Assembly: GCA_021790995.1 (NCBI GenBank)
Contig: JAJYFA010000017.1
Location: forward strand, 1-39,684
Reading direction: 5' to 3'
Length of the DNA stretch: 39,684 nucleotides
Source of the DNA: Acidobacteriota bacterium
GTDB taxonomy: Bacteria; Acidobacteriota; Terriglobia; Terriglobales; Acidobacteriaceae
Of this stretch, positions 7,354 to 38,449 are shown piece after piece (the stretch's first letter is position 1; each line of letters starts with the position of its first letter). The translations under genes and the position numbers were made by a program. A model generated the notes under the pieces. That model was given only the letters and a program-made list of their open reading frames with translations, was not told the origin of the DNA and made no database searches.

Positions 7354-7355
7354 CG

Positions 7356-11107: not shown

Positions 11108-11118
11108 AAGGCGGAGCC

Positions 11119-15487: not shown

Positions 15488-15488
15488 T

Positions 15489-16450: not shown

Positions 16451-17374
16451 ATGGAAGACAAACCAGCTTCGACGCCCCGGCGGGGTATTTATCTGGTCGC
16501 AAACCGGCGGAGCGAGGCGGAATCGAACAACCTGATCGATTCGATCCGCCGCTGCGGGTGCCGTCTGCCGATTCGTGTCATTCCTTTCGATGACACCCCG
16601 GCGATTCTCGACAAACGGTGGGATGAAGTCGAACCGTTGTTGATAGGCGATTTTCCAGCCGACGGGCTGGCATTTTTCCGGGAGTTGACCGAGCGGCATC
16701 GCGGCTGCCATCCCGGTCTTCTGCGCAGGTTTCTCTGCTGGTTTGGCGAGTTCGACGAGTTTCTTTACTCAGATAATGACGTTGTCGCGCTGATGAACTG
16801 GGAGGAGCTGTTCCCCTGGCTCGAAAATTGCGACGTGGTGCACGCCGACACCGAATACAAGACCGGCGGAAGATTCAATCTGCGCGAGCCGCGCAGGTTC
16901 GAAGATCTGATGGGCGCCGGGTCGCTTGAGGCCGCGCTTACTTCAGGACATTTCTTATGCCGCAGGTCGCCCACGCATGTTGCCGACCTGCTGGCAGGGC
17001 TCTCGTGGATGGAGGCGCATCGCGACCTGCTCATCTGGCAGGACCAGGTGCTTCTGCACGTCACGCTTCTTGTGGCGAAGTGGCGCGTCTTGAACCTTTG
17101 CAAGCCGCCCTACGACTGGGCGTCGTCGTGGGCTGGCGACTACAAGGACGTTCTTGAGTTGGTGCGCACGATTCAAGTGGAGCGCAGGCCCATCAGCCAC
17201 ATACATTACTCGGGCAGGATCGGAACCGGCCTGCGGCCGATCGACGAGCTGATCTATTCGAGCCTGACGATCCCGGAACGAAATCGGAAGCTCTTGTGGG
17301 CGCTCCTGAGGCAGGCAGTGGGCATTGAGGCCGCGGAGCGGCAGTTCGCTCGCGTGCTGCGCAAGATCGAATAG
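16451..17374 (+). CDS. Putative GT-A glycosyltransferase of unassigned family (DND motif)
   Basis: A 307-residue cytosolic protein without signal peptide or membrane segments. It shows the marks of a metal-dependent GT-A enzyme: a DxD-type motif (FLYSDNDVVAL, D108-D110), a TSG stretch (164-166), WQDQ (196-199) and a late histidine motif HIHYSG (250-255). These occur in the order seen in GT8-like transferases. I do not recognise a named family. Two other proteins in this cluster (34400-35329 and 35380-36345) share the same motif order. Start ATG 16451; a TTG overlapping the previous stop (16424) is an alternative. The C-terminus carries one copy of a 16-bp direct repeat. Confidence 0.6.
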   Translation: MEDKPASTPRRGIYLVANRRSEAESNNLIDSIRRCGCRLPIRVIPFDDTPAILDKRWDEVEPLLIGDFPADGLAFFRELTERHRGCHPGLLRRFLCWFGEFDEFLYSDNDVVALMNWEELFPWLENCDVVHADTEYKTGGRFNLREPRRFEDLMGAGSLEAALTSGHFLCRRSPTHVADLLAGLSWMEAHRDLLIWQDQVLLHVTLLVAKWRVLNLCKPPYDWASSWAGDYKDVLELVRTIQVERRPISHIHYSGRIGTGLRPIDELIYSSLTIPERNRKLLWALLRQAVGIEAAERQFARVLRKIE

Positions 17375-17458
17375 CTTGCCGTGCGCTCGCAACAGCCTGA
17401 TGGACTGGGAGCGGACGCGGGATGATTTGCGCGAGCTGCTTTCGTGCTGCGCAAGATC
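17353..17458 (+). repeat. 16-bp direct repeat pair flanking a gene junction
   Basis: CGTGCTGCGCAAGATC occurs at 17353-17368 (end of the preceding gene) and again at 17443-17458 (start of the next). The copies are exactly 90 nt apart. Both encode LRKI in the local reading frame. It may be a remnant of a local duplication. Confidence 0.6.
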
Positions 17459-17470
17459 AACAGATTTCTC

Positions 17471-18574
17471 ATGAACAAGGGCGGAGATCGTCAACTCATC
17501 CAGGTTGTACCCCGCATGACGCCGGCGCTGTGCGGCGTGAGCGACGGAGCGCTGCTGTTGGCGGCGGAATTGAAAGCCGCGTTTGGCATTGAGACGGCGA
17601 TTGTGGTCGTGAACTCGCAGGAGAGATGCGACGTTGAGTTTCCGATCGAATATGGTGAGCCGGCCCAGTTGCTTGATGCGTGCCTCTCTTTGACCGGCGG
17701 TCGGCCGGGGAATCTACTGGTGCATCTCAGCGGCTACGGCTACTCGCCGGATGGAGCGCCGGCGCTTGTTGCCGATGCGCTCGAAAGCGTGAAGACGGAC
17801 GGACGCTTTCGCATTGCGGTGTTCTTTCATGAGTTGTATGCGAGTGGACCGCCTTGGACCTCGGCCTTCTGGTATGCGCGACGCCAGAAGCGCGCATATC
17901 GCAGGATTGCCAAGGTGTGCGATCTTGCCGTCACGAATGCGCGCGTCTTTGCGGATTGGCTCGAACGGCAAACCGCGTCACCGATCGAATGTATGCCGGT
18001 GTTCTCGCAGGTTGGAGAGGCGCGCGATCGCCTTTCATTTGCCGAGCGAGACCGGACGGTGTTGGTTTTCGGGCTCGCGGGCACGAGACGGAGAGTCTAC
18101 CGGGAACTCATCATGCCGAGCGATGTTCTGGAGCGGCTGGGAGTCGAGGAGATTCTCGACATCGGACCCGATTGCGATGCACCGCGCGCCGTGAATGGGA
18201 TTCGCGTGAGATCAATGGGAGTGCTTGCCGCAGCGGAGGTCGGCCGCTTGTTTACGCGCGCTGCTTTTGGCTATCTCGCGTATCCGCCGAATTGCCTGGC
18301 AAAGTCGGGAGTGTTCGCCGCATATAGCGCGCATGGAGTGGTTCCGATGATTGCCGAAGCCTTTCGCGGAGAGTTCGACGGGCTGAAAGATGGAGAGCAG
18401 GTTTTGAGTCGCGAAACCGCGAAGGGGATGGATCCTGCAGCGCTGGAGCGGTGTTCACTCGCGGCCTGGCGCTGGTACGCGGGGCACAGTCTGCGCCATC
18501 ACGCGGCCATCTACGATCGATGGCTGCCTCCGTCCGGCGCGGCAGCAAAGAGCATAGAACAGAAAAATGGATAA
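17471..18574 (+). CDS. Divergent glycosyltransferase, GT-B-like
   Basis: A protein of 367 residues from ATG 17471 (376 from the GTG at 17444; neither start has a clear ribosome-binding site). The pattern is that of a GT-B glycosyltransferase: an N-terminal half ending in VFFHELYASGPPW, then VLVFGLAGTRRRVYRELI opening the second Rossmann domain. A donor-site-like segment NCLAKSGVFAAYSAHG stands where GT4 enzymes have E-x7-E, so the classical glutamate pair is missing. No membrane segments. It overlaps the next gene by 8 nt, implying coupled translation. The function in repeat-unit assembly is inferred. Confidence 0.6.
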   Translation: MNKGGDRQLIQVVPRMTPALCGVSDGALLLAAELKAAFGIETAIVVVNSQERCDVEFPIEYGEPAQLLDACLSLTGGRPGNLLVHLSGYGYSPDGAPALVADALESVKTDGRFRIAVFFHELYASGPPWTSAFWYARRQKRAYRRIAKVCDLAVTNARVFADWLERQTASPIECMPVFSQVGEARDRLSFAERDRTVLVFGLAGTRRRVYRELIMPSDVLERLGVEEILDIGPDCDAPRAVNGIRVRSMGVLAAAEVGRLFTRAAFGYLAYPPNCLAKSGVFAAYSAHGVVPMIAEAFRGEFDGLKDGEQVLSRETAKGMDPAALERCSLAAWRWYAGHSLRHHAAIYDRWLPPSGAAAKSIEQKNG

Positions 18575-19811
18575 GCCGCGGGTTCTTCTCTCCCATCCCA
18601 CGGGCAATCAAAATGTCCGCAACGCCCTTGTGAGTCTTGCCGAGCGAAAGATGCTGGCGGAGTTCTGGACGACAATTGCCTGGGATGCGCGGTCGACGTG
18701 GAACTGGCTGCTGCCTCGCGGGGTGCGAACGCTGCTGGAACGGCGCGCGTATCCGGATGTGCCGCGAGACCGTGTGCGAAGTGTTCCGTGGCGAGAGGCG
18801 ATTCGCCTCGGCGTCGGGTCGACGCCGGTGAATCATCTTTTGACCTCGGGAGAGCGGCCGTTCTCGATCATCGGCGTCTACCGGCACCTCGACGGCAAGG
18901 TAGCGCGGCGCGTGGGCAGCTTGCGTCCCGATGCCGTGTACGCCTACGAAGGCGGTGCGCTCGAGACCTTCCGCGAGGCAAAACGGTTGGGCATCCGGAC
19001 GATTTACGAGCTCCCAAGCCCCAATTGGTACTGGGTGCGCGATCTGCTTGAGCAGGAGGCCGGGCGCAATCCAGCCTTCGCCGGAATTCTTCCCAACCTC
19101 GCGGACTCGGCGAAGCACTTGCGATGGAAGGATGAAGAACTTTCTCTGGCGGACTATGTGTTTGTCCCCAGCGAGCATGTGCGGAGGACGCTGGCAGGCG
19201 TAGTTGCCGATGAAAGAATCCGCGTGGTGCATTATGGAGCCCCGGCAATCCGTCCGAGGGGGCGGGTTGCAAGCGACCCCATGCGGCCGTTGCGAGTGCT
19301 GTTTGTTGGCGTGCTGACGCAGCACAAGGGCATCGGCTACCTGCTGGACGCCATCGACTGGCTTGGGTTCCGGGTGGAACTTACGCTGGTGGGACGCCGG
19401 CTCCTGCCGAACGCGCGCGTAGACGAGGCATGCAGCCGCTGGCGCTGGTTCGAGACCTTGCCGCACGGCAGGGTGCTGGACGTGATGATGGAATCGGACG
19501 TTCTGGTGCTGCCCTCGCTCCGCGAAGGCTTCGGCCTGGTGGTCACCGAGGCGCTGGCCTGCGGCCTGCCAGTGATTGTGACTCAAAATGTCGGAGCTGG
19601 CGATCTGATCCGCGACGGCAGGGAGGGATTTGTCGTGCCCATCTGCTCCGCAGATGCCATCGCCGAGCAACTGGTGATTCTCTACCGCGATCGGGAGTTG
19701 CTCGCAGCAATGTCACGTGAGGCGCAGAAAACAGCCGCACGGGAGTCCTGGGTAAGTTATCGCGCCAGATTCGCGGATGCACTGGAGGCCGTCGCGGCGT
19801 GCCGGCAATGA
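18567..19811 (+). CDS. GT4-family glycosyltransferase
   Basis: A 414-residue GT-B enzyme. The C-terminal domain has LFVGVLTQHKGIGYLLDA (opening of the donor-binding Rossmann fold) and the E-x7-E motif in LREGFGLVVTEALACGLPVI. The N-terminal half is long (YELPSPNWYWVRDLLEQE), as in other exopolysaccharide GT4 enzymes. It overlaps the upstream gene by 8 nt and the downstream polymerase gene by 4 nt (ATGA), so the three are almost certainly cotranscribed and translationally coupled. The sugar specificity is not visible. Confidence 0.88.
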   Translation: MDKPRVLLSHPTGNQNVRNALVSLAERKMLAEFWTTIAWDARSTWNWLLPRGVRTLLERRAYPDVPRDRVRSVPWREAIRLGVGSTPVNHLLTSGERPFSIIGVYRHLDGKVARRVGSLRPDAVYAYEGGALETFREAKRLGIRTIYELPSPNWYWVRDLLEQEAGRNPAFAGILPNLADSAKHLRWKDEELSLADYVFVPSEHVRRTLAGVVADERIRVVHYGAPAIRPRGRVASDPMRPLRVLFVGVLTQHKGIGYLLDAIDWLGFRVELTLVGRRLLPNARVDEACSRWRWFETLPHGRVLDVMMESDVLVLPSLREGFGLVVTEALACGLPVIVTQNVGAGDLIRDGREGFVVPICSADAIAEQLVILYRDRELLAAMSREAQKTAARESWVSYRARFADALEAVAACRQ

Positions 19812-21163
19812 GACAAAATCCGGCAGGCCCGAGCGGCAAAATGCCCTTGCTCAAGAAGCTCTTCTGGGCCTATTTTCTGCTGCTGATCTTCGAGGGCGCG
19901 CTGCGCAAGTGGGTTGTGCCACAGCTTTCCGCGCCCCTGCTGCTGGTCCGCGATCCGGTGGGACTACTGATTCTGCTGGAGGCATTCCGCACCAACCGGT
20001 GGCCGCGCAGATGGTCGGGAGTAGCCGGTATTCTTGCCGTCGGGTTCCTGATTCTCAGCACGATCCAGATCATTGTCGTGAACAACCCGTTGATCGCCGT
20101 GCTCTACGGATTGCGTTCCTACCTGCTTCCCTTTCCGGTGGCCTTTGTCATGGGAGAGAACCTGACCGCCGAGGACCTTCGCAGCTTCGGCCGATGGACG
20201 CTTTGGATTCTTCTGCCAATGACCGCGCTTGAGATTGCGCAGTACATGGCGCCTCCTGGTTCGTTTCTTAACAGAGGCGCTTATGAAGGCGCTAAACAGC
20301 TTTACTATGTTGGCTCTCATGTAAGAGCGTCAGGAACCTTCAGCTTTGTGGCCGGAGCAGTGAGTTATTCGCCGCTTGCGGGGGCATTTATCTTGTACGG
20401 ACTGCTAAACAACAATTTCGTCCGGAAGTGGCTGTTGTGGGCGGCGGCCGGAGCGGTGATCCTTTCCATTCCGATGATCGGCGCCCGCACCGTGGTCTTC
20501 GAACTGACGGGTGTTGTCGCCTGCATGGGAGTTGCGACGCTCCTGGGAGCTTCGCAGCTCGGCAAGATCTTCAAGATCGCGGCTCCCATCGTGGCGGTAT
20601 TTTTGTTGATTTCGCTGTTGCCGGTCTTCTCGAAGGCAACGCGTTCGTTTGAGACGCGCTACACCGAGGCCAACCGGATTGAGGGCGGAAGTGTGCAGAG
20701 AGCCGTGGCGAACCGCGCTCTGCTACCCCAGTTCTATCAGCTTGAAACGGCTGACTACACCAAGAATCCGATCGGAATTGGAATGGGGCAAGGTGCTGCG
20801 GCCGTCGCAAAGCTCGCAACGGGAAGGGTAACGTTTATTACCGGAGAAGGCGAACTTGGCCGGGTGATGACTGAACTCGGGCCGATTACCGGCGTAGCAT
20901 TTATGCTCTTCCGGCTGATTCTTGCCCTCCTGTTCCTGACGCAGGCCCTGGCCGAGGCGCGCAAAATGGAACCCCTCGCCTTGCTTCTGGCTCCTTTGAC
21001 TGCGATTGCATTGATATACAACGTTTGCGAGCAGCCCGCCGAGCAGGGATTTATGGTGATCGGTGTGGCCTTTACTCTGGCGGCGTTGAAACTTTCCGGA
21101 GAGCGGCCCGTGGCTGTGTACGCGAGGAGCAGTCAGCGCGCTCCTGTCCGCTACAGCGCGTGA
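19808..21163 (+). CDS. O-antigen ligase/polymerase-like membrane protein (Wzy candidate)
   Basis: A 451-residue protein with about ten to twelve hydrophobic segments. A long hydrophilic loop lies in the second half (about 275-330, beginning SFETRYTEANRIEGG), the typical arrangement of Wzy polymerases and WaaL/O-antigen ligases with a large periplasmic loop. FPVAFVMGENLTAEDL and GARTVVFELTG are in keeping with this family. It likely polymerises repeat units on the periplasmic side. The start ATG 19808 overlaps the previous stop (ATGA); a GTG three codons earlier is less likely. Wzy proteins diverge strongly, so ligase versus polymerase is decided only by the cluster context. Confidence 0.75.
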   Translation: MRQNPAGPSGKMPLLKKLFWAYFLLLIFEGALRKWVVPQLSAPLLLVRDPVGLLILLEAFRTNRWPRRWSGVAGILAVGFLILSTIQIIVVNNPLIAVLYGLRSYLLPFPVAFVMGENLTAEDLRSFGRWTLWILLPMTALEIAQYMAPPGSFLNRGAYEGAKQLYYVGSHVRASGTFSFVAGAVSYSPLAGAFILYGLLNNNFVRKWLLWAAAGAVILSIPMIGARTVVFELTGVVACMGVATLLGASQLGKIFKIAAPIVAVFLLISLLPVFSKATRSFETRYTEANRIEGGSVQRAVANRALLPQFYQLETADYTKNPIGIGMGQGAAAVAKLATGRVTFITGEGELGRVMTELGPITGVAFMLFRLILALLFLTQALAEARKMEPLALLLAPLTAIALIYNVCEQPAEQGFMVIGVAFTLAALKLSGERPVAVYARSSQRAPVRYSA

Positions 21164-21234
21164 CAAATTGCGCGGCCCGTTGCGGGTCCAGCTTTTGCAG
21201 TTTGAAGGCCCCTGGTCTTGCGAGGACATCTCAA

Positions 21235-22152
21235 ATGAGCGTCGAGAACAATGCGCCGGTTCGAGAGCATGAACTCTCTGTCGGAGTTCTGGTGTTGAAC
21301 TACAACACGTGGGATCTCGCGCTCCGGGCACTCGATGCGGCGATTCGTCTCGAAACAGGCAATGTGAAGGAGTATGTACTGTTCGACGATGGATCTGCGA
21401 GCGCGCCTCCGGAGAAGATCGACAGCCGCATTGCCATTCTTCGCGGAGATACCAATCGCGGATTTGGCCGCGCTCTATGCGAGGCGTTCGCGGCCATGAA
21501 AAGCGACATCGTGGTGCTCTTCGACTCCGATGCGGTTCCGCTGACACCGTTTGCGGATAAGGTGCGCGAACACTTTGAGCGGGATGCGCGTCTGGGGCAG
21601 CTAGGGTTTCGCGCCCAGGACGCAAACGGGGCGCAAACAGAGTCGTTCTTCAACGAGCCGACACAGTGGAGTTTGATCCTGGGGCAGGCGCTCGATGCGC
21701 GCATGAAAAAGGAATCGCCGCGGCCCGACCGGCTGTGTGTGATTACCGGCTGCATGGCGACCCGCGCCGAGGCATATCGCCAGGTGGGAGGATTCGACGG
21801 GGAGTTCGACTTTCTGGATGTCGACGTGGACTATAGCATGAGACTGCGCCGAAGCGGATGGAAGGTCGAAGTCGATCCTTTGATTGAGGTTTTTCATGTG
21901 GGCGGCGGGACGCTGCAACTGATGCGCAATCGCGTTCTCCATTTCTACAAAAGCCGGTGGCGCCTGCTGCGCAAGCATGGATTGATGCCGAGTCCGCGCC
22001 TGGCCCGGGCTGTCATTCTCGCGCGGCTTGTGTGCGAACGGGTGATCCTGCAGGTCTTCGGCCGCATTCTGTTTCCCGCTCCCGAGGTTCTCAACGACAA
22101 GATTCTCGGGCGCAAAGATCTGCTGGCTTACTGCCGGGCCAGCTTCCATTAA
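21235..22152 (+). CDS. GT2-family glycosyltransferase
   Basis: A 305-residue GT-A inverting glycosyltransferase. It opens with VGVLVLNYNTWDLALRALDA, has the DDGSASAP nucleotide-binding segment, and the metal-binding DxD as LFDSDAVPL. The GGFDGEFDFLDVDVDYSMRL segment is the acceptor/catalytic base region typical of rhamnosyltransferase-like GT2 enzymes. I start at ATG 21235, preceded by CGAGGA; the frame continues upstream to 21025 inside the preceding gene, which is not coding. It follows the polymerase gene by 71 nt. Confidence 0.9.
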   Translation: MSVENNAPVREHELSVGVLVLNYNTWDLALRALDAAIRLETGNVKEYVLFDDGSASAPPEKIDSRIAILRGDTNRGFGRALCEAFAAMKSDIVVLFDSDAVPLTPFADKVREHFERDARLGQLGFRAQDANGAQTESFFNEPTQWSLILGQALDARMKKESPRPDRLCVITGCMATRAEAYRQVGGFDGEFDFLDVDVDYSMRLRRSGWKVEVDPLIEVFHVGGGTLQLMRNRVLHFYKSRWRLLRKHGLMPSPRLARAVILARLVCERVILQVFGRILFPAPEVLNDKILGRKDLLAYCRASFH

Positions 22153-22230
22153 GATGAACCGCATTCCAGGCGACTGCGAACGGCGTTCGCGTTATTTCGA
22201 GCATCGAAGGAGATTGCTGGAGCAAAGACG

Positions 22231-23076
22231 ATGATTCGCAAATTGAAACAGGGTGTCAAGAAGGTACTTCCACCCCGAATCCTTGCCCGCATCAGCGCCG
22301 ATCGCTGGTGGAGGTTCCTTTGGATTGCCTGTGAGCGCAATGGCATGCACGAATTTTGCCGGAAGTTAGTATCAAAAAATGGCCTGGTCGTGCGCTGGGG
22401 CCCATTTGCCGGTTTAAGACTTCCGCCAGAAGCAGTCCTGGCCAGCAGCAACTGCGCCGCGTTGGTAGGAACATATGAGATGGAACTGCATCCGTGGCTT
22501 CGCCAGCTTGTTCCCGGCAAATACGAACGGCTCATCGACATTGGTTCCGCAGAGGGATATTACGCAATAGGAATGGCGCTGCGCACCGGTTCCCGGGTGG
22601 ATGCTTTCGACACAGCCTCGATAGCGCGGCGTCTGAGCCGCTCAACGGCCCGGCTGAACGGGGTGTCCCATCTGGTGCGCATGCATTCCTTTTGCTCGCG
22701 ACGGGCACTTCTGCGATTCTCCGGGCTGCGATGCTTTATTCTTAGCGACTGCGAAGGATACGAGACACTGCTGTTTTCGACAGACCTGATTCGCGCACTT
22801 ATCCGCTCGGACTTCGTTATCGAGCTTCATGACGGCTCCGCACCGGCAGGATCGGCACGGGAGATTTTGAAAGATAGATTCAGGGAAACGCATTGTGTTC
22901 AAGTTGTGCAGTTTCGGTGGCGCAGCCTATCGGATTTTCCGGACCCTGCGCTGGCTGAGATGCTCGGCGCGGATGCAATTCGTGCGATCAGCGAGGAGGG
23001 GCGGCTTCCAGATCAGGAGTGGCTGATTGCGACCGCGCGGAATGAGCCGTCTACCGGTAACAGCGCTGGTGCATAA
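22231..23076 (+). CDS. FkbM-like SAM-dependent methyltransferase
   Basis: A 281-residue class I methyltransferase. Motif I is LIDIGSAEGYYAIG (101-114) and a later SDCEGYETLL (172-181) matches the D-x-E-G-x-E segment of the FkbM family. It probably O-methylates a sugar of the repeat unit, or a lipid-linked intermediate, using S-adenosylmethionine. GGAG lies about 8 nt before the ATG. It has no membrane segment, so it would act in the cytosol before flipping. The N-terminal region (1-95) is basic and aromatic and not recognised. Confidence 0.7.
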   Translation: MIRKLKQGVKKVLPPRILARISADRWWRFLWIACERNGMHEFCRKLVSKNGLVVRWGPFAGLRLPPEAVLASSNCAALVGTYEMELHPWLRQLVPGKYERLIDIGSAEGYYAIGMALRTGSRVDAFDTASIARRLSRSTARLNGVSHLVRMHSFCSRRALLRFSGLRCFILSDCEGYETLLFSTDLIRALIRSDFVIELHDGSAPAGSAREILKDRFRETHCVQVVQFRWRSLSDFPDPALAEMLGADAIRAISEEGRLPDQEWLIATARNEPSTGNSAGA

Positions 23077-23121
23077 GGTCGTCATGTCGATTCAAGCAAC
23101 CGTTTGCAATAAGCAGCTCCG

Positions 23122-24168: not shown

Positions 24169-24181
24169 CGAAGAGTGGTGG

Positions 24182-25438
24182 ATGAGAGTTCTTATTCTGA
24201 GCATCAATTACTGGCCCGAGGTTACGGGCATCGGCGCGTTCACAACGTACCGCGCGGAGCATCTTGCCGCCGCGGGGCACGATGTGGAGGTGTGCACTAC
24301 ATTTCCCTACTATCCGGACTGGAGAGTGCCGCAGAAATATGCCGGAAAGTTTGGGCTGACGGAGGAGCGCAACGGAGTTCGCATTGTCCGCTGTCGCGCC
24401 TATGTTCCGAATCCTGTGACGCCCATCAAGCGCATACTCCACGAGGCCAGCTTTATTGCCGCACTGACATTACGTGCGCTGCCGCGCAAGCGTCCGGATG
24501 TTCTGCTCGTGGTTTCTCCGCCGCTTGGCCTGATGGCGCCGGCAATCCTGCTCAGCCGTCTGTGGGGCGTTCCCTATATCTTTGACGTGGAAGACTTGCA
24601 GCCCGATTCGGCCGCGGACCTTGGCATGCTTCCGAAGTGGGCCGTGAAGCTTCTCTATAGAGTCGAGAGCACGGCCTATCGCCATGCGCGCCTGGTTACG
24701 ACGCTCACTCCCACCATGAGGAAGCGAATCATTGAGAAAGGGGTTGCGGAAGACAAGGTGGGGCTGATTGAGCCGCGGATGGATGAATCGTTGATCGATT
24801 TGCTGCCTGAGGAAGGCCGCGCGTTTCGTCGTCGCTACAACCTGGGCGAGAAGTTTCTGGTCACGCACAGCGGCAACATGGGTGTGAAGCAGGGCCTCGA
24901 TGTGATTGTTGATGCTGCAGCGCGGCTCCGCGACGATGACTCCATGCTCTTGCTGTGTGTGGGGAACGGCGCGGAGTGCGAAAGAATCAAGCGCCGTGCC
25001 GCTGAGATGCAACTCGACAATTTGCGGTTTCTGCCGCTGCTTGACGAAGCGGACTTTCGTGGACTGATGGCAGCAAGCGACGTGTGCCTGGTGACGCAGC
25101 AGCGTTCGGTCTCTGAGATTGTGTTTCCTTCGAAGATTGTGACCTATCTTGCCGCGGGATGTCCTGTGATTGCTTCAGTCAATCCCGAGTGCGAAGTTGC
25201 GCAGATATTGCATGAAGCGGGAGCAGGAACAGTCGTGGCGGCGGAAGATCCAACAGCACTCGTAGTTGCCCTTAGCGCGCTGCGGCGAAGCGATATGCGC
25301 AAGGCGGGTGAAAATGCGCGCAAGTATGCGAGTGAGCGATGGCCGTCCGCGCGCGTTTTGGGCGAATTGGAGCGAAGCCTTGCGTCTGCTGCTGGGCAAG
25401 CTATGCGATCGCTGGCATGGAAAGGATCTAAACCATGA
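24182..25438 (+). CDS. GT4 glycosyltransferase, WcaI/WbuB-like
   Basis: A 418-residue GT-B enzyme resembling the colanic-acid transferase WcaI and WbuB. It begins MRVLILSINYWPEVTGIG and contains HDVEVCTTFPYYPDW and YIFDVEDLQPDSAADLGML. Its donor-site segment FPSKIVTYLAAGCPVIAS replaces the usual E-x7-E form, as is typical of this subfamily. E. coli WcaI is about 407 residues, so the length fits. With gmd and fcl in the same cluster, a fucose-related role is possible but inferred. The start could also be ATG 24155, which overlaps the previous gene by 14 nt. It overlaps the following gene by 4 nt (ATGA). Confidence 0.85.
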   Translation: MRVLILSINYWPEVTGIGAFTTYRAEHLAAAGHDVEVCTTFPYYPDWRVPQKYAGKFGLTEERNGVRIVRCRAYVPNPVTPIKRILHEASFIAALTLRALPRKRPDVLLVVSPPLGLMAPAILLSRLWGVPYIFDVEDLQPDSAADLGMLPKWAVKLLYRVESTAYRHARLVTTLTPTMRKRIIEKGVAEDKVGLIEPRMDESLIDLLPEEGRAFRRRYNLGEKFLVTHSGNMGVKQGLDVIVDAAARLRDDDSMLLLCVGNGAECERIKRRAAEMQLDNLRFLPLLDEADFRGLMAASDVCLVTQQRSVSEIVFPSKIVTYLAAGCPVIASVNPECEVAQILHEAGAGTVVAAEDPTALVVALSALRRSDMRKAGENARKYASERWPSARVLGELERSLASAAGQAMRSLAWKGSKP

Positions 25439-26247
25439 ACGGTTCCTTGCTGAGATGGATGATTCCCGTCGCGGCCCTGGCCGTTGTGGTTCTCCCCTGC
25501 TGCGGGAAGGCGCAGACGCAGCAGACCGAAAACCGGCAAGCCGGCACTCAACAGACCGGAGTTGTGCAACCTGTCGGCGCAATCTCCTCGCGTTCCAGTT
25601 CAACGGCAAAGAGTACTGCAACGAGATCGCCTGGCGCGATCTCTGGAGCGTCGAGTTGGTCGGCGGGGCAGAGAAGTTTTGGGACTACCGGCGCAATGCC
25701 TGCGGCGACTAGAGGCGCGGCGGGCAATGCAGGACAATCGAGTTGGGTTGCAGGAGGCGGCAGCTTTGGATCGACGGTGCAGCACGGGGGGATCTGGCGG
25801 GATAGTGCGGGGCCATCAGAAACTTCAAGCAGCGCGTCCACCAAAAAGCCTGCTAATGGAACAGTTTTTTCGTTCGCGATGCCGGGCTCCACGAGCACTC
25901 ACTCCGCATTTACCACGAAGCCCGTGAGCGCAGCGGGCGATCATGCCACATTCCCTCGCACATTGAACCGCCCGCATGTCGGCGGCGGATTGCGGCCTGG
26001 CGGTTCGAACAGGTTCTTGGAAGGCTCTCATCTGCGAGAGACAGGACGCACGCGCACTGGCCTGGGCCAGAGAGACTTCCGCAACCGTTCTGGTAGCGGG
26101 GATAGAGGCAAATCGGGCATGGGCTGGGGGCAAAAGTCTTCAGGGTACGATTCGACGGCGCAAACCCCATTCGGCTTCACGCCATTTGACGCCAAGCCGG
26201 GCCGGGACACAACCAGCAAAGGGTCTGCGTCGACGCCACCACAGTAA
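25435..26247 (+). CDS. Unrecognised secreted Ser/Thr/Gly-rich protein
   Basis: A 270-residue protein with an N-terminal signal peptide (about 1-26: hydrophobic VAALAVVVLPCCGKAQ). Cys22 and Cys23 are near a lipobox position, but the L-P-C context is a poor match, so lipidation is uncertain. The mature part is low-complexity: rich in Ser, Thr, Gly and Ala, with a basic, Arg/Gly-rich C-terminal half. An internal repeat is visible: SSWSAGQRSFGTT (73-85) and SSWVAGGGSFGST (102-114). No known domain. The ATG overlaps the stop of the WcaI-like gene (ATGA), so it is translated with the polysaccharide genes. A surface or matrix-associated protein is possible, but function is unknown. Confidence 0.65.
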   Translation: MNGSLLRWMIPVAALAVVVLPCCGKAQTQQTENRQAGTQQTGVVQPVGAISSRSSSTAKSTATRSPGAISGASSWSAGQRSFGTTGAMPAATRGAAGNAGQSSWVAGGGSFGSTVQHGGIWRDSAGPSETSSSASTKKPANGTVFSFAMPGSTSTHSAFTTKPVSAAGDHATFPRTLNRPHVGGGLRPGGSNRFLEGSHLRETGRTRTGLGQRDFRNRSGSGDRGKSGMGWGQKSSGYDSTAQTPFGFTPFDAKPGRDTTSKGSASTPPQ

Positions 26248-26337
26248 CTCAGAGCGCATGCATTGGCCTGAAGATGCGCGCAATAGTAATTGGGAAGGCT
26301 TCGTACGAAAAGCGCACTTACCTGGTCCCTTCCCGAC

Positions 26338-27198: not shown

Positions 27199-27295
27199 AA
27201 CAACGATGGTAGCGCAGCGGGGTTCCGGCAGTGCCGCATGGTTGCAACCGGTACTCTAGGCTTTTCAGGCAGGATCGGCACAGCGCGGGAGCCCG

Positions 27296-28435: not shown

Positions 28436-28441
28436 TAAGTA

Positions 28442-29461: not shown

Positions 29462-29488
29462 ACGCGCGAGAAGAGTTACGAACATCGC

Positions 29489-30415
29489 GTGAAAGATGCA
29501 AATGTGAGTACGGAATTGCCGGTGAAACAAGCTCTGCACATGCCAGCAGTGTCGATCGTTACGACGACATTCAATCGGACTGAATATCTGAAGGAGGCGA
29601 TACAGTCAGCTGTCTCGCAGACTTTTGGCGATTTTGAGCTACTGGTGTGCGATGATGGCGGACTCGATGCAACGAGGCGGCTTTGCGAGAGCTTTCACGA
29701 CAATCGCATTGTCCACGTCGCAAATCCTGCACGATTGGGCATTGCCAGGAATACCTATGCCGGCATTATGCGAGCCCGGTCCAATGTGATTGCGTTTCTC
29801 AACGACGACGATCGCTGGACCCGCGACTTTCTGGCGCAGTGTGCCGTACCTCTTCTTGAAGACTCCGATGCAGTGCTCGCCTTCAGCGATCATTGGCTGA
29901 TTGACTCCAAAGGAGTGCGACTCCTCGACGCAACGGACGCTAACACGCGCGAGTATGGCCGCGACGTTCTCACGGCCGGTAAGGTCGATTGTCCGGCACG
30001 GCTGATGGTCCGGCTTTCGGTTCCCATGGCCATGGCCGCAGTGTTTCGCCGGTCGAAGGTCGATTGGGATAACTATTCGGAGAAGGTCGAGGGAGCATAC
30101 GACAGTTACATTGCATATTCGCTTCTGCGAAACAAAGGTAAGGTGATCTATATTCCGCGGAGGCTAACAGAATACAGAACTCACAGCGGCGCGGCGAGCG
30201 CAGAATTCCATCGCGACACAACAGAGGGCCTAGCGCATGTTTACGGCCTGATTCTTAAGGATCCAACCTACAGGATCGTCGCAGAGGAAATTCGTAAAAA
30301 ATATATTGCCTTTGAAAGGCATCTGGTAAAGCTCAGTCTTGCCGAGCAGGATTTCCGGTCGACAATGGCGCATTGCGCGCGGCTGATATATACAGAAATC
30401 TTCTCAGCTGGTTGA
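29489..30415 (+). CDS. GT2-family glycosyltransferase
   Basis: A 308-residue GT-A enzyme. It carries VSIVTTTFNRTEYLKEAIQS (about 21-40), CDDGGLDATRRL and the metal-binding segment FLNDDDRWTRDF. MAAVFRRSKVDWDNYSEKVEGAYDSYI is the acceptor-side region (given as two motifs: MAAVFRRSKVDW and EGAYDSYIAYSLL). The GTG at 29489 is used as start; ATG 29540 is a shorter alternative without a ribosome-binding site. The flippase gene begins 1 nt after its stop, which points to coupled translation. Confidence 0.88.
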   Translation: MKDANVSTELPVKQALHMPAVSIVTTTFNRTEYLKEAIQSAVSQTFGDFELLVCDDGGLDATRRLCESFHDNRIVHVANPARLGIARNTYAGIMRARSNVIAFLNDDDRWTRDFLAQCAVPLLEDSDAVLAFSDHWLIDSKGVRLLDATDANTREYGRDVLTAGKVDCPARLMVRLSVPMAMAAVFRRSKVDWDNYSEKVEGAYDSYIAYSLLRNKGKVIYIPRRLTEYRTHSGAASAEFHRDTTEGLAHVYGLILKDPTYRIVAEEIRKKYIAFERHLVKLSLAEQDFRSTMAHCARLIYTEIFSAG

Positions 30416-30416
30416 A

Positions 30417-31763
30417 ATGACTGCATTTTCAGGAGGATCTATCCGGATTCGACCGCACATCGTATCCTCGAGGGCTTTTTTTTTACCGAAGCTTCGCCGC
30501 ATCGCGGAATTTCTGGTATCTCAGGGAATTACTACTGCAGGGAATGTCATATATGGCCTGCTGTGTGTTCGATTGCTGCCTATTGGGGAGTATGCGAAGT
30601 TTGTTGTAGTGTTCTCTGTCCAGGCATCGCTCATGATTCTTCTGGATGTTGGTATCTCGGGAAGTTTTATTCCCTTGATAGGTGAACGAGTCGACGACTC
30701 GAAGTTGATTGCCGACTATCTGGCGTCCTTAAGACAGATAGCGCACTGGCTCTTTGCCGTTGCCGTGCCGGCCACGATCTTTGCTTATCCTCTTATGGTG
30801 CGCAACCGCCATTGGAGCTGGCAGATCGTCACCGCAATGGTGGCTATTGTGCTGGTCTCAGCATGGTTTGCGCGCGTAGGGGCGGCATACGGCTCAGTCC
30901 TCATCCTGAAGCGCGATCGGCAGCGCTGGTACAGAGCGCAGATGTTTACGAGCTTTGGGGCTGTTGGTTTGATTGGCGTCTTTGCCTTCCTTCACTGGCT
31001 CGGTGCCTTTGTGGCCATACTGATCAGCGTGGGGCGGGGCATCGCGATTGCAGCGATCTATTATTCACGAGCGGGTACCCTGCTTGGAGTGAAAGGCAAT
31101 CCTTCCAGAAATAAGCGGAAGGCAATCGTTCATCTTACATTGCCGGCTATTCCGAGCGTTATCTATTACGCCCTCGGCGGGCAAATCTCGGTGTTCCTGA
31201 TTACGATTTTTGGGCATACTGCCGCTGTGGCTTCAATAGGCGCATTGACCCGGCTGGGCCAAATCTTTGCTCTCGTGCAGCCGATCAATGGAATCCTGAT
31301 TGAGCCCTACTTTGCGCGATTACCGAGGGCGCAACTCCGGAGCCATTATCTGATGGCTGTAGCGGGCGCGGCTGTTTGCGGCGCTGCTCTTGTAGCCCTG
31401 GCACGAGCTGTTCCGGAGCTGTTTCTGTGGGTCCTCGGCCCGCAATATGCGAGATTGCAAACCGAGGTCGTGCTCGTAATCCTTTCAGGAGCGATTGGAC
31501 TTATCACCGGCGTGATGGCGTCGATCAACGGCTCGCGGCGATTTATCTATTATTCGTTCGTCCTGACAGATATTATCCTCACCCTCATCCTGCAGGCAGT
31601 CTACATTTGGAAATTCGATTTGAGCACAGTGAAGGCGGTTCTGTGGTTCAACATCGTTACGATGATTCCGACTGTTTCTGTCGCTATCCTCACGGCACTT
31701 TACGGCTTTGCGCGGGGTGGACGCCGCATCGTGGAAACTGCGTATGCTTCAGAGCGCACGTAA
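30417..31763 (+). CDS. Wzx-like polysaccharide flippase
   Basis: A 448-residue polytopic membrane protein with about twelve hydrophobic segments, starting near residue 32 (FLVSQGITTAGNVIYGLLCV). It contains the MOP-superfamily pattern of repeated helices with charged loops such as ILKRDRQRWYRAQMF and SRNKRKAIVHLTLPAIP. It most likely flips undecaprenyl-linked repeat units across the inner membrane, delivering them to the Wzy-like polymerase at 19808-21163. It begins 1 nt after the GT2 gene. In this cluster it lies far from the polymerase gene. Confidence 0.82.
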   Translation: MTAFSGGSIRIRPHIVSSRAFFLPKLRRIAEFLVSQGITTAGNVIYGLLCVRLLPIGEYAKFVVVFSVQASLMILLDVGISGSFIPLIGERVDDSKLIADYLASLRQIAHWLFAVAVPATIFAYPLMVRNRHWSWQIVTAMVAIVLVSAWFARVGAAYGSVLILKRDRQRWYRAQMFTSFGAVGLIGVFAFLHWLGAFVAILISVGRGIAIAAIYYSRAGTLLGVKGNPSRNKRKAIVHLTLPAIPSVIYYALGGQISVFLITIFGHTAAVASIGALTRLGQIFALVQPINGILIEPYFARLPRAQLRSHYLMAVAGAAVCGAALVALARAVPELFLWVLGPQYARLQTEVVLVILSGAIGLITGVMASINGSRRFIYYSFVLTDIILTLILQAVYIWKFDLSTVKAVLWFNIVTMIPTVSVAILTALYGFARGGRRIVETAYASERT

Positions 31764-31846
31764 GCGCCGGCGTCCCGGCTGAAGCTGAAGATATGAGGAA
31801 AGGCAGGGCGTGTCTGATTCTTTCGTGAACCTCCAATACACAGAAA

Positions 31847-33334
31847 ATGGCAATGATGACATTTCTCCGGACGCTCGGTGACTATCTGCACAGACGGAGC
31901 TTCTGGTTGCGGTTGGGCGCGGCTGTGCTTGCTTTTGTCGTGATTACCCATGTTTTGGTTCTTACTCTTCACGACATGGAAACCTATCCCGGTGTCGATC
32001 TGCGCGCTAAGGTCGTGGGCGCCAGATTGATACTTCGTGGGATGAATCCTTATTACGATTACCGCCAAGAGGTTCTCCCAGATCATCTCCGGATGTTGCA
32101 GGCGGACACTTACTCTCCGGTATTATTGCTCATTTATGCTCCTCTATGCGAACTCGACTGGAAGGTGCAGCGCGCCGTCTACTTTCTTATCGATTGGTCC
32201 GCATTGCTGCTCTGTTACGTGATTCTGTCACGTGCCTTCCCAAAGCACGCATCACGCACTGCGCTTTGGATCGGCTTTGTTTTGCTCTTTGTCGCGGACT
32301 TTGGCTTCCGATTCCATCTGGAACGCGGGCAATATTACGTTGAGGTGGCCCTCCTGACAAGTCTGGTGGCGATTGCCCTGTTTCGGAGATCCGGCTCGTG
32401 GCCTGGTGCGCTTCCGCTGGCGCTTCTGGTGCTTGTGAGGCCAACATTTGTAATCTGTTTCGCCTGCGTTCTATTTTTGCGGCAGTTTCGGCACGCCACG
32501 AAAGCAATAGTGCTATGCGGGCTACTGTTCGCAGCATCGCTTCCGATTGTTGGCTTGAAAGACTGGAAAAACTATGTCGCCACGGTCCGCGCAAATCAAA
32601 GTGAGATGCTGGCTGATGCCTACGCGCAAGGCTCGCAACCGGCTACGAGTTCAAGCAAAGTGCTTGAAGGGGTTGATTTCTCCAGGTCGCTCTCGGGGCC
32701 TGGCTATCTGGCGGATCGCACGCTCATTGGAGTGGCGCGAGGTTCGGTGAGCCCCGTGCTCGCGGGACTTGTGCATCGCGTGGCGCCATCAGCACGGTCG
32801 CTGCAACGAATGAATGCGCTGTGCTTGCTGCTTGCGCTGTGCTTCGACCTGGCGGTGATGTACTTTTTATCGCGCGGCCAGAGACCGAACTTGATTTCAA
32901 TTGCATTCGTCTTTCTTGCCCCGCTCAACGTGGAGATCTTTGCGCCGCAGCATTTTGGATATTGCGATGTGATGATTTGTGTCCCGCTCTTGCTGGTCAT
33001 GGCAGTATATCTGGAGAAAGCTAATCTGGGTGGATGGAGTTTCTATGTCACGATTCTTCTTATAGGAGCTGGGATTCCATGGCTGGCATTCCATTTCGAC
33101 AAGCATGTTCCGCTGGTTAGTTTCTCGAAGTATGTTGCGATTCTTGCAGTTCTCAATGGCGCCTGTTTGAAGGAAGGTTGGCAGCGTCGTCAATGGCTGA
33201 GAAAGTGCGGCCCTGAACTTACGATAGAGATGGATAGGAAAGTTCCATCGTTGGAGCATCCCCGGACGGAGAGTTGCGATGTTGATTGTGGCAGACGAGA
33301 GAGTTGGTGTTGCTGGGCGGTAAGAGAGCAGTGA
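31847..33334 (+). CDS. GT-C-type polytopic glycosyltransferase (GT87/DUF2029-like)
   Basis: A 495-residue protein with about ten membrane segments. The first periplasmic loop contains YPGVDLRAKVVGARLILRGM followed by NPYY (about 47-70). This is the aspartate-bearing motif of GT87-like GT-C enzymes, which use polyprenyl-phosphate sugars on the periplasmic face. It might add a side-branch sugar after flipping. The start ATG 31847 lies 83 nt after the flippase stop. The last ~40 residues are hydrophilic with four cysteines and look unlike the rest, possibly read-through into non-conserved sequence. Confidence 0.7.
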   Translation: MAMMTFLRTLGDYLHRRSFWLRLGAAVLAFVVITHVLVLTLHDMETYPGVDLRAKVVGARLILRGMNPYYDYRQEVLPDHLRMLQADTYSPVLLLIYAPLCELDWKVQRAVYFLIDWSALLLCYVILSRAFPKHASRTALWIGFVLLFVADFGFRFHLERGQYYVEVALLTSLVAIALFRRSGSWPGALPLALLVLVRPTFVICFACVLFLRQFRHATKAIVLCGLLFAASLPIVGLKDWKNYVATVRANQSEMLADAYAQGSQPATSSSKVLEGVDFSRSLSGPGYLADRTLIGVARGSVSPVLAGLVHRVAPSARSLQRMNALCLLLALCFDLAVMYFLSRGQRPNLISIAFVFLAPLNVEIFAPQHFGYCDVMICVPLLLVMAVYLEKANLGGWSFYVTILLIGAGIPWLAFHFDKHVPLVSFSKYVAILAVLNGACLKEGWQRRQWLRKCGPELTIEMDRKVPSLEHPRTESCDVDCGRRESWCCWAVREQ

Positions 33335-33356
33335 GAGCAGGACGGAAGGCGGAAGG

Positions 33357-34277
33357 ATGCGGTGCCCAACAATAGCAGAACTGCCAAAGCCGCCGGCTGA
33401 TAAGGCCGGCTGGCCGTGGACGGAAGAGTCGGAACGTCTGCCCGATGCCATGCCCAATGGACGCGCATGGCCGAAGATCAGTATCGTGACTCCGCTGCTC
33501 AACCAGCGGCCATTTATCGAAGAGACAATTCGCTCAATTCTGCTGCAAGGCTATCCTGATATTGAGTACCTTATCGTCGATGGGGGATCGACGGACGGCA
33601 GTTTGGAGCTAATCGAGAAGTATGCGGCCTGGGTTAAGTGCGCCGTTCGCATTGGGGAAGGGCAATCCGCTGCGGTGAACCACGGATTTAGAGCGGCTGC
33701 AGGAGAGTTGATCGGCTGGCAGAATTCAGACGATTTCTATGCGCAGGATAGCTTTGGTTCCGCGGCGCTAGCCGCGGCCGCGCACCCTGATTACGACATT
33801 CTGAATGGAATGGTCCGCGGCTTTCAAGGGCAGGACAGCAGGCCACCGTGGCTCTTTGAGAATTGCAATGAGTTTTCGCAGGAGAAGCTGCTCGAAGAAG
33901 TTTGCGTGATGAATCAGAGCATGTTCTTCCGCCAGAGGATTTTTGAGCAAGGAGTATGGCTCCGCGAAGATCTGCATTTTGCGATGGACATTGAGTTTTT
34001 TTGGCGCCTGTCGCTCGAGGGGTTTCGTTATCATCTGGTGCCCTCGATGATCGGATATTACCGTCAACATGAGAATGCCAAGAGCACGCAATACGACGTG
34101 CGCAGCGATCTGGAGCCCTATGCGATTCTCAGGGGACTCTGTCGAGACAGAAGACTAGATCGGCGCTTGCGCCTTATGGCGCGTCGGCAGCTACGGATGA
34201 GATTCCTGCGATCCTTCTTCCATGCGCGGCGAACGATTCTCAAGAAGCTTGCCCCTGAGCTTATCCTGCCTGTGTAG
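33357..34277 (+). CDS. GT2-family glycosyltransferase
   Basis: A 306-residue GT-A enzyme with a proline-rich N-terminal extension (about 1-38), then ISIVTPLLNQRPFIEETIRS. The nucleotide-binding segment is IVDGGSTDGSLELI and the metal region WQNSDDFYAQDSF. The acceptor/catalytic part is MNQSMFFRQRIFE and DIEFFWRLSLEGFRY. The family transfers hexoses to lipid-linked intermediates. Ribosome-binding support is modest (GGAAGG close to the ATG), so the first residues are uncertain. It is separated from its neighbours by 22 nt upstream and 122 nt downstream. Confidence 0.9.
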   Translation: MRCPTIAELPKPPADKAGWPWTEESERLPDAMPNGRAWPKISIVTPLLNQRPFIEETIRSILLQGYPDIEYLIVDGGSTDGSLELIEKYAAWVKCAVRIGEGQSAAVNHGFRAAAGELIGWQNSDDFYAQDSFGSAALAAAAHPDYDILNGMVRGFQGQDSRPPWLFENCNEFSQEKLLEEVCVMNQSMFFRQRIFEQGVWLREDLHFAMDIEFFWRLSLEGFRYHLVPSMIGYYRQHENAKSTQYDVRSDLEPYAILRGLCRDRRLDRRLRLMARRQLRMRFLRSFFHARRTILKKLAPELILPV

Positions 34278-34284
34278 AGATGTT

Positions 34285-34316
34285 CGCGGCTTTGCCGCGG
34301 CTGTGCGCGAAGCACA
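34285..34316 (+). terminator. Two tandem hairpins in a cluster gap
   Basis: CGCGGC-TTT-GCCGCG (34285-34299) is followed by TGTGC-GCGAA-GCACA (34302-34316), within the 122-nt gap after the GT2 gene. No U-run follows, so they may stabilise or process the mRNA rather than end it. The rest of the gap shows no promoter I would defend. Confidence 0.35.
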
Positions 34317-34399
34317 TCGAGCGGTGGGACGGCGTTTCACCTGATAAGTCAGGCGGAGCTGTTTTCTAATAGTGTCGAAGGACCGAGGTTAGTGCGAGT

Positions 34400-35329
34400 G
34401 TGAATCGCATCTTGAGCAAGCTCACGACGAAGCCCATCTGGTGGTGGGAGCGCAAACGCAGATATCCTATTCGATTGCGTTTCAATCGGTTGCCTTCTTT
34501 GCCGGCGAAGACCGGGAGAACACGTTTTGTGGTGCTTGCGACTCCAGAAACGCTGTGCGATGCGTTTTGGGCGGCGTGGAGCTGGTATCGCTTTCTGCGC
34601 GACGAAGATTGCAGGTTGCAAATCGCGGTCGATGGGGCCGTCTCAGAGTTAGACAGGGCCGCTGCATCCGAACTGTTTCCTGGTGTTTTAATCGAGTCGA
34701 CCGAGTGGGCATGTAACTATGTGCGTCAGCGAGTTCCCGGCATTCAGAGTTTTTTTGACACGCATCCGATGGGCAGGAAGCTGGCGCTGATTCTCGCTCT
34801 GTCCGATCTGGGCCCGCTGGTTTATTCGGACCAAGATGTGCTTGCGTTTCAGCGACCCGATGAGGTTATTGCTGCAATCGGAGGGGGGATTCCACGCTAT
34901 TTTGCCGAAGAGGTGGACGGCGCACGTGACGCGCAGATTATGCAAAGGGCGAAGCAACTCGACCTAGATTACCTGCCCCGGTTCAACAGCGGATTTTTAT
35001 ATATTCCACAGGGCGCACTTTCGAGTCGCCTGGCCGCACAGATTCTCACGTCCTGGCGTGCGCGTGGCGAGTTATGGTTCACCGAGCAGACTGTGCTGAG
35101 TTTCATGCTGCAACGACTTGGCGCCGAAGCGCTTCCGGAAAGCCGTTATGTAATTAGCAACCGAAGGCAATTCTATTGGGAAGAGGATGTCGATTACTCG
35201 GCGATTACGGCGCGACACTTTACGGGGACAGTCCGGCATGTGATGTATAAATACGGCCTGCCGATGATTATAAAGCAAAGCAAAGATCATTGTGGCGCTG
35301 AACAGGCGGAATCCGCGGAGAGTATGTAA
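34400..35329 (+). CDS. Putative GT-A glycosyltransferase of unassigned family (DQD motif)
   Basis: A 309-residue cytosolic protein. A basic N-terminus is followed by FVVLATPETLCDAFWAAW, then VYSDQDVLAF with a DxD motif (D144-D146). FNSGFLYIP (195-203), EQTVL (229-233) and RHFTG (272-276) come next. The order DxD, N-S-G, Glu-Gln, late His-x-x-Gly resembles GT8-like retaining transferases. I cannot name a family. It shares this layout with the proteins at 16451-17374 and 35380-36345. The GTG at 34400 is the likely start; the spacing from GAGG is long. Confidence 0.6.
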   Translation: MNRILSKLTTKPIWWWERKRRYPIRLRFNRLPSLPAKTGRTRFVVLATPETLCDAFWAAWSWYRFLRDEDCRLQIAVDGAVSELDRAAASELFPGVLIESTEWACNYVRQRVPGIQSFFDTHPMGRKLALILALSDLGPLVYSDQDVLAFQRPDEVIAAIGGGIPRYFAEEVDGARDAQIMQRAKQLDLDYLPRFNSGFLYIPQGALSSRLAAQILTSWRARGELWFTEQTVLSFMLQRLGAEALPESRYVISNRRQFYWEEDVDYSAITARHFTGTVRHVMYKYGLPMIIKQSKDHCGAEQAESAESM

Positions 35330-35379
35330 CGAAATCGTTGCAGGTTGCGAGTGTAGTGAAGATAGCAAGGACAAGGGAT

Positions 35380-36345
35380 ATGAATGAGAGCGCGACTCCG
35401 TCTTCTGTAAATGATGTTGGTATCTGCACGCTATTCGAGGGTGATTACCATCTGGGCCTTGCCGCCTTCGTCAATTCACTGGCACACGCTGGATACCGCG
35501 GAACTGTATGGGCGGGGTATCGCGGCGCTCTGCCGCCTTGGGTCGATCAGCTTGAGCGGGTCCAGGGACAAGAGGCGGATGAGTTCCGTGTAGAAGGCCT
35601 GATCAAACTGGCTTTTCTGAAGCTCGATACAGCGATCCATCTTACGAATTACAAGCCGGAGTTTATGCTGAGGCTTCTGGCCGATAAGGCGAGAGAGTGC
35701 AAATATCTCTGGTACTTCGATCCCGATATCTTTGTGCTGGCGAACTGGACGTACTTTGAGAAATGGCAGAGATGCGGAGTCGCATTGTGTCAGGAAATTG
35801 TCGATAACATCTTTCCCGCTGATGCGCCGTTGCGGCAAGAGTGGATGAGGCTTGCTACAGGCGCCGGTTTCATTGCTCCGCGACAGGTCAATCACTATTA
35901 CAATGCGGGCATGGTCGGGGTTCCGGTGGAGCATAAAGGATTTCTTGAGGAATGGGAAAGGCTCATTCGACTAGCCGAGTCACTTGGCTACAACATGAAC
36001 GTGATGGCGCGCGGTAGCCGTGATATGCCTTTCAATATGCGCGATCAGGATGCATTGAATGTTGCTGTTATGTACACGAAAGCCCCGCTCAGCACTCTGG
36101 GGCCGCAGGGGATGGGTTTTATTTATGGGGCATCGACCGTGGTGTACCACGCCGTCGGGCCGAAACCGTGGAGAGGCTCAATCCTTCTGCGTGCGCTCAA
36201 AGGATTGCCACCGTCCGGGGCGACGAAGTGTTTTTTCGCCCAGGTTGGCGGACCCATTCGCGTATACTCGCCTGTGCGTTTACGAGCAAAGCGCCTGGCG
36301 TGCTCCCTGGCAGCATTTATAGGGCGTTTTTACCGTCGCTATTGA
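35380..36345 (+). CDS. Putative GT8-like glycosyltransferase (DPD motif)
   Basis: A 321-residue protein. [20 protein letters not shown] opens a GT-A-like fold; the metal site is [14 protein letters not shown] (D114-D116). [10 protein letters not shown] (173-182), DQDALN (222-227) and YHAVGPKPW (256-264) follow. The last is close to the H-x-x-G-x-KPW motif that closes the active site in GT8 enzymes, making this the clearest of the three related proteins. Start ATG 35380, with AAGGA about 8 nt upstream; the frame continues to 35338 without support. It is followed by gmd after 22 nt. Confidence 0.68.
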
Positions 36346-36367
36346 GAATTCAAGTAGGGTGCAATTT

Positions 36368-38378: not shown

Positions 38379-38449
38379 ACCTTTGGTTCGACATCTGCGG
38401 GGTTTCGCGGAGATTTGTCGGGAAAGCAGCTTTGCGAAATAATCCACGT

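Follow-up and report, generated by a model that had tools for sequence, protein, structure and literature searches.

Three strongly diverged, probable GT8-clade glycosyltransferases in an exopolysaccharide gene cluster of an Acidobacteriota bacterium

What kind of enzymes are encoded by three unassigned genes of an acidobacterial polysaccharide locus, and do they form a single family? The genes lie on the forward strand of contig JAJYFA010000017.1 (assembly GCA_021790995.1, Acidobacteriaceae), whose positions 1–39,684 were analysed and are referred to here as the window. They specify P0001 (16451–17374, 307 aa, immediately 3′ of a gene for a Wza-like export protein), P0002 (34400–35329, 309 aa, with a GTG start) and P0003 (35380–36345, 321 aa). 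A sequence-only reading had described a shared motif layout in the three proteins, found no family that could be named for them, and proposed that they are a set of related, uncharacterised glycosyltransferases (GTs) of GT8-like, GT-A type, typical of this lineage. The results given below make it probable that they are three separate, strongly diverged GT-A transferases of the GT8 clade, which together assemble one exopolysaccharide repeat unit. We place P0002 and P0003 in the clade with high confidence, but P0001 with a confidence that is low to moderate.

All three reading frames are open over these coordinates, and the motif order is the same in each protein: a DxD motif ending a hydrophobic strand, followed at similar spacing by [NST]-x-G, [DE]Q and a late His motif. 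In P0001 the elements are LYSDND (residues 105–110), TSG (164–166), DQ (198–199) and HYSG (252–255); in P0002 they are VYSDQD (141–146), NSG (196–198), EQ (229–230) and HFTG (273–276); and in P0003, WYFDPD (111–116), NAG (175–177), DQ (222–223) and HAVGPKPW (257–264). A regular expression encoding the motif order and its spacing, composed post hoc from the three proteins themselves, was matched by 11 (P0001), 3 (P0002) and 4 (P0003) of 20,000 shuffles of each sequence, by none of the 29 other open reading frames of the window taken as genes, and by six of the ten GT8 proteins used as references (WaaO, WaaJ and eight WaaO relatives). The layout described earlier is therefore borne out, being rare in shuffled sequence and confined to these three among the window genes. 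It is loose among their relatives, occurring in both members of the P0001 family, 2/5 close and 3/8 widened members of the P0002 family, and 7/11 members of the P0003 family.

PMC7185993 gives DxD, G-loop, xED and C-His as the core common to GT-A families, so that most of the layout is general GT-A core, the clade-specific part being the KPW of P0003, and the layout alone would define no new family. According to the same paper, the metal of LgtC is coordinated by C-His, and the clade containing GT8 has in common a KPW whose lysine coordinates the phosphate of the donor. HxxGxxKPW is given as a GT8 motif in PMC5751367 and PMC3522684.

In Pfam, no match above a curated cut-off was obtained for P0001, P0002 or P0003, and the three were compared with GT8 at the level of profiles. 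The GT8 profile had 10 members, consisting of E. coli WaaO and WaaJ and eight plasmid-borne WaaO relatives, six of these annotated as family 8. The P0003 family (11 sequences) matched it in hhalign at 96.5% (E 9.3e-10, 224 columns), with four motifs aligned (P0003/GT8): YFDPD/YLDAD, YYNAG/YFNSG, DQDALN/DQDVMN and HAVG-PKPW/HYTGATKPW. The widened P0002 family (8 sequences) matched at 94.7% over 199 columns, placing YSDQD, NSG and EQT at the GT8 motif positions. In P0001, YSDND (residues 106–110) aligned on YLDAD, while TSG and DQ also fell on GT8 motifs. Column-permuted profiles never reached the observed GT8 score (0/150 each for P0001, the close P0002 family, the widened P0002 family and P0003). 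Profiles of GT2, GT4 and epimerase, made with sequences of the cluster and of its relatives, stayed below 1% against each of the three families, and reversed-profile controls gave at most 3.1%. PF01501 itself was scarce, being found in 2/99 relatives at E 0.001; below its cut-off (24.3 bits) it matched a distant relative of P0002 (L046, 14.6) and one of P0003 (L044, 17).

The two aspartates of the P0002 DxD motif (D144, D146) are invariant in 7/7 family members. In place of HxxGxxKPW the protein carries ARHFTGTVRHVMYKYG, and it has no KPW. Weak matches to PF01501 (E 0.3) and PF03407 (E 0.27) came from one of six family members, P0002 itself having no PF01501 match. An AlphaFold2 (AF2) model of P0002, built from six sequences, has a mean pLDDT of 71.3, with ten-residue means of 77–93 over residues 31–250 except at 171–180 (60) and 221–230 (58). 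When this model was compared with the PDB using Foldseek, the best rows were glycogenin (E 4.3e-8), XXYLT1 and LgtC (E 9.7e-8), and all of the 50 matches listed were entries for glycogenin, XXYLT1, LgtC, LARGE1, WbbM or COLGALT1. The 50 matches listed by VIA span Z 13.7 to 11.6, with rows within 1 counted as tied, and include WbbM (Z 13.7, 212 residues, 3.4 A), glycogenin (13.6), LARGE1 (13.5), YeGT (12.8) and LgtC (12.6); families absent from either list are not excluded by it. As modelled, P0002 has a GT-A fold near those of WbbM, glycogenin, LARGE1 and LgtC.

Profile searches of the PDB with the P0003 and P0002 families returned no glycosyltransferase, and a single-sequence search with P0002 returned, besides an IspD/IspF enzyme (E 0.075), five chains of LptC. 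The LptC match (phmmer E 1.3e-4 to 6mit_C, over P0002 residues 190–272, window 34967–35215) would make P0002 a relative of a lipopolysaccharide (LPS) transport protein rather than a transferase, an idea to which we give almost no credence: the match weakens with the family profile (E 0.0073), the GT-A fold model covers most of residues 190–272, and the DxD is invariant. It was taken as a chance match and rejected.

A P0002-type protein also occurs in a transferase cluster of Gloeothece. In one relative (genome G227, L026:14544–16457) the P0002 gene is present as a tandem pair, of which the copy at 14544–15485 has lost two motifs, with RYFTG where the late His would be and AR in place of the EQ; the altered copy suggests either decay or a new role.

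For P0001, residues 84–255 match NCBIfam NF045582, the Npun_R2821/Npun_R2822 family, at 70.5 bits (E 1.7e-19; cut-off 250). The description of this family gives no function, and a literature search found nothing on Npun_R2821. Weak matches to NF045582 were also seen in the P0002 relative L046 (E 8.8e-4) and in the P0004-type protein L057, of a group next to P0003 (E 3.9e-4); overall it was found in 2/60 relatives and, in the phylum sample, in the own genome only (1/396). P0001 and its 80% identical relative score 20 and 20.3 bits against PF11051 (putative mannosyltransferases; cut-off 22), and PF01501 does not match P0001 at E up to 1. The late His region reads HIHYSGRIGTG, without KPW, and a single-sequence search of the PDB returned nothing at E up to 10. 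The earlier statement that none of the proteins matches a nameable family thus holds for P0002 and P0003 and comes close to holding for P0001, which matches NF045582 and PF11051 below their cut-offs; with no curated family above cut-off for any of the three, their uncharacterised status stands.

P0003 itself drew no match in Pfam. Among 10 aligned members of the P0003 family, Pfam searches at E up to 10 found neither PF01501 nor any other glycosyltransferase family. Residues D114, D116, D222, D224, H257, K262, P263 and W264 are invariant in all 10. The late motif of P0003, HAVGPKPW, is one residue short of HxxGxxKPW, and the exact spacing is present in relatives L006 and L007. In the PDB, a single-sequence search with P0003 that allowed E up to 10 found nothing. 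Two plasmid records of one Comamonadaceae strain (a betaproteobacterium) carry relatives with about 35% identity, one of them in a polysaccharide cluster, and the Comamonadaceae proteins are annotated as 'hypothetical protein'.

A bigger group of proteins labelled 'glycosyltransferase' or 'hypothetical' (L044:1276–2493 and L056–L061; P0004-type) is nearest to P0003 among the groups compared, GT8 aside, matching its family at 95.5% over 167 columns and the GT8 profile at 95.9%. The motifs of L044 are KPTFM, YLDPDI, NLGF, DQ and HFSG. On contig C227 of genome G000 (C227:1–530, L036:1–530, minus strand) the end of P0003 recurs as a second, decayed copy interrupted by two in-frame TAG stops and gaps; the aligned stretch has 76% DNA identity to window 35978–36525, and the start of a second GDP-mannose 4,6-dehydratase gene (gmd) follows at the contig edge.

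Several results weigh against placing all three proteins in the GT8 clade. The reference profiles compared were those of GT8 (WaaO branch only), GT2, GT4 and epimerase, and the clade of GT8 also takes in other GT-A families such as GT24. All three proteins miss the PF01501 gathering score. P0001 with its one relative (two sequences) reaches only 14% against GT8, over 124 columns, albeit with three motifs in register. P0002 with four close relatives (5 sequences) reaches only 44.6% over 96 columns, so the 94.7% of the widened family hinges on three added distant relatives (20–24% identity for the two measured). Both P0001 and P0002 lack KPW. Of five P0002-family members, two have an incomplete His-x-x-Gly and two an incomplete EQ, and in the P0003 family Q223 is replaced by Glu in both Comamonadaceae members. 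The P0002 model is weak in the stretch bearing the EQ (221–230, mean 58) and poor at both ends and at residues 254–281, so that the late His, which lies in the latter stretch, cannot be placed. The AF2 model of P0003, for which the sequence was combined with those of three close relatives (four in all), is poor (pLDDT 43.6); its top matches, bovine alpha-1,3-galactosyltransferase and LARGE1, reach a Z of 6.1, which does not rise above noise.

These points bear on an alternative in which the proteins, though GT-A transferases, fall outside the GT8 clade and belong to other families or to new ones, and the layout is nothing but generic GT-A core. The wide sharing of that core (PMC7185993), the missing KPW of P0001 and P0002, the narrow miss of PF11051 by P0001 (20 of 22 bits) and the presence of mannosylglycerate synthase, UGGT, Kre2 and alpha-1,3-galactosyltransferase at Z about 11.6–12 with the P0002 model all speak for it. 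We regard it as unlikely, since GT2, likewise of GT-A type, stays below 1% against all three profiles whereas GT8 matches, and since all four GT8 motifs including KPW align in P0003. The assignment to GT8-like GT-A transferases, as first proposed, is thus supported by profile for P0002 and P0003 and also by the structure model for P0002, while for P0001 the profile match is weak. The outcomes that had been named as counting against the proposal, folds other than GT-A or confident hits to a known family for all three, were not found in the family searches or in the P0002 model, the one usable model obtained.

The relationship among the three proteins is distant. BLASTP comparison of P0001, P0002 and P0003 yielded best pieces of only 17 residues (E 0.17), 25 residues (E 0.039) and 16 residues (E 24), and direct hhalign comparison of the three families gave 0.2, 3.6 and 5.0%. 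P0001 matched the widened P0002 family at 66.3%, but over just 31 columns around the DxD. That match, together with the similar lengths and motif spacing and the shared cluster, would be expected of recent paralogues forming one new family; such an origin is very improbable given the short BLASTP pieces and the low direct profile scores, and P0002 and P0003 each have relatives of their own elsewhere. A single paralogous family was therefore rejected as largely refuted by the sequence comparison, and the description of the proteins as a related set fails in its narrow sense. Judged by sequence, P0001, P0002 and P0003 are instead three separate families that meet at the superfamily level, via GT8 and, weakly, NF045582.

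All three genes lie within a Wzx/Wzy-type exopolysaccharide cluster that includes GDP-L-fucose genes, every gene given here with its start and end being on the forward strand. At its head is an UpxY/RfaH-type antiterminator (11038–11721; NF033644, 113.7 bits, cut-off 100), followed by a Wzc-like Wzz/tyrosine autokinase (13229–15487; PF02706, PF13614; TIGR01007, 148.3 bits, cut-off 108) and the Wza-like export protein (15351–16427; PF02563, PF10531). Two polytopic membrane proteins match no family above cut-off: a putative Wzy-like polymerase (19799–21163, 7 transmembrane-like segments) and a putative Wzx-like flippase (30417–31763, 10 segments), both named from hydropathy and context. In three relatives, L029, L031 and L032, a homologue of the latter directly precedes the gene for P0003. 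Downstream of P0003 are gmd (36359–37435; TIGR01472, 606 bits, cut-off 415), the GDP-L-fucose synthase gene fcl (37428–38378; NF047922, 502 bits, cut-off 500) and a gene for a WcaF-like O-acetyltransferase (38432–39064; NF007797, 157 bits, cut-off 192). The window also encodes GT4 and GT2 transferases, one GT47-like and one GT87-like protein, and a WcaI-like gene; no initiating sugar transferase was found among the window genes scanned. Same-order homologues exist in relative G167 (L024, L025) for 23 of the 25 genes counted in 11038–39064, those of the genes at 22231 and 25435 not being found at the threshold used. P0002 and P0003 adjoin in all four genomes with a close P0002. Literature searches joining Acidobacteria, exopolysaccharide, glycosyltransferase and GDP-L-fucose, or directed at novel GT families, found nothing on these topics.

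Two other features of the window were observed. Mid-cluster, 25435–26247 encodes a 270-aa protein that is rich in Ser, Thr and Gly, begins like a signal sequence and matches no family above cut-off. Beside the synthesis locus is a degradation locus (4754–10796) with glucuronoyl-esterase-like and GH106 rhamnosidase genes and a LacI-type regulator.

The position of gmd and fcl directly downstream raises the question of whether P0003 is a fucosyltransferase that uses their GDP-L-fucose, which would be compatible with a GT8-type fold and would differ from the GT8-clade assignment only in the donor. The association recurs: the distance from P0003 is no more than about 5 kb for gmd in four cases (the window, L025, L028 and L030), and no more than about 6 kb for fcl in the same four and in L034; a gmd start also follows the decayed copy on C227. 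No gmd match (E 1e-15, half query) was found in L026 or L033, nor on the short contigs L029, L031 and L032, many other transferases of the window could use GDP-fucose, and GT8 enzymes are not known to use donors other than UDP-sugars. A fucosyltransferase role is accordingly rather improbable.

The proteins are thinly spread. Within the genus, P0001 was found in 2/44 genomes, P0002 in 5/80 (one at 25% identity) and P0003 in 10/80, the own genome included in each case. In the phylum sample, single-protein searches found each of the three in the own genome only (1/149), and two profile searches found the own genome and one distant match each (at least 2 of 396 genomes, with at most five first-look candidates scored per genome listed). 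Since many genomes are drafts and candidates were limited in this way, the counts are lower bounds. Named relatives are Acidobacteriaceae and other acidobacterial metagenome-assembled genomes. A scan of genome contigs with the P0002 family gave 28 stretches fitting the pattern, of which 4 were confirmed; viral contigs scanned with P0003, the P0003 family and the P0001 family gave no confirmed match. On plasmids, P0001 had no match at 1e-3 and one of E 8 when E up to 10 was allowed, and P0002 had none. The low and patchy counts, together with the distant hosts, indicate scattered accessory genes rather than a mark of the lineage, and the suggestion that they typify it, which the roughly 35% identical P0003 relatives in a betaproteobacterium also contradict, does not hold.

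If P0001, P0002 and P0003 are GT8-clade transferases, what they probably do, judging from GT8 and the cluster, is attach single sugars to a lipid-linked repeat unit in a retaining reaction. All three would act as cytoplasmic enzymes, in which the DxD, and the late His where it is kept, would bind the nucleotide sugar and a divalent metal. The DQD motif lines the donor pocket in GT8, and the [DE]Q region would do the same here; the KPW lysine of P0003 would bind the donor phosphate. From each enzyme a lipid-linked oligosaccharide would receive one sugar, the donor probably being a UDP-sugar and the anomeric configuration being retained; flipping of the oligosaccharide (30417), its polymerisation (19799) and its export (Wzc/Wza) would follow. 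The use of a metal, the retaining mode, the anomer, the donor, the acceptor and the order of addition we infer from GT8 and the cluster, as we do, for P0001, everything beyond a weak, in-register similarity.

P0002 and P0003 may each found a subfamily outside the Pfam and NCBIfam models searched. Tentatively, the P0002 type, which has no KPW and keeps a GT8 fold and DQ region, could be a distinct branch with acidobacterial and cyanobacterial members, its donor binding and donor sugar unlike those of known GT8 enzymes.

The polysaccharide clusters of bacteria often hold 'hypothetical' genes, and the three here can be assigned to the GT8 clade, two of them firmly. Pooling of distant relatives assigns proteins that single-sequence Pfam searches miss, and a family model would give a name to the 'hypothetical' P0003 relatives of Comamonadaceae. 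The chemistry is ordinary, in a poorly studied phylum, with no new mechanism: the three add new, diverged members to a kind of enzyme already known, and the sequence-only reading was a sound observation with a family guess that was roughly right.

Among known systems, one close likeness is to the LPS branch of GT8/PF01501 (E. coli WaaO and WaaJ; LgtC), which shares the GT-A fold (in the P0002 model), DxD, N-x-G, DQ region, late His and, in P0003, KPW, as well as a setting in envelope polysaccharide clusters. The three proteins differ from it in scoring below the PF01501 cut-off, in the lack of KPW in P0001 and P0002, and in a Gly-Lys gap that is one residue shorter in P0003. In structure the P0002 model comes closest to glycogenin and the matched half of WbbM, its GT8 domain (Z 13.6–13.7, tied with LARGE1), but identity is 12–16% and their roles are not implied for P0002. 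P0001 resembles NF045582 (E 1.7e-19) and falls below its cut-off (70.5 bits vs 250). The cluster as a whole resembles colanic-acid-type Wzx/Wzy clusters in its Wzc/Wza-like genes, gmd, fcl and the WcaF-like and WcaI-like genes, and differs in having an UpxY-type antiterminator and three GT8-like transferases of separate families.

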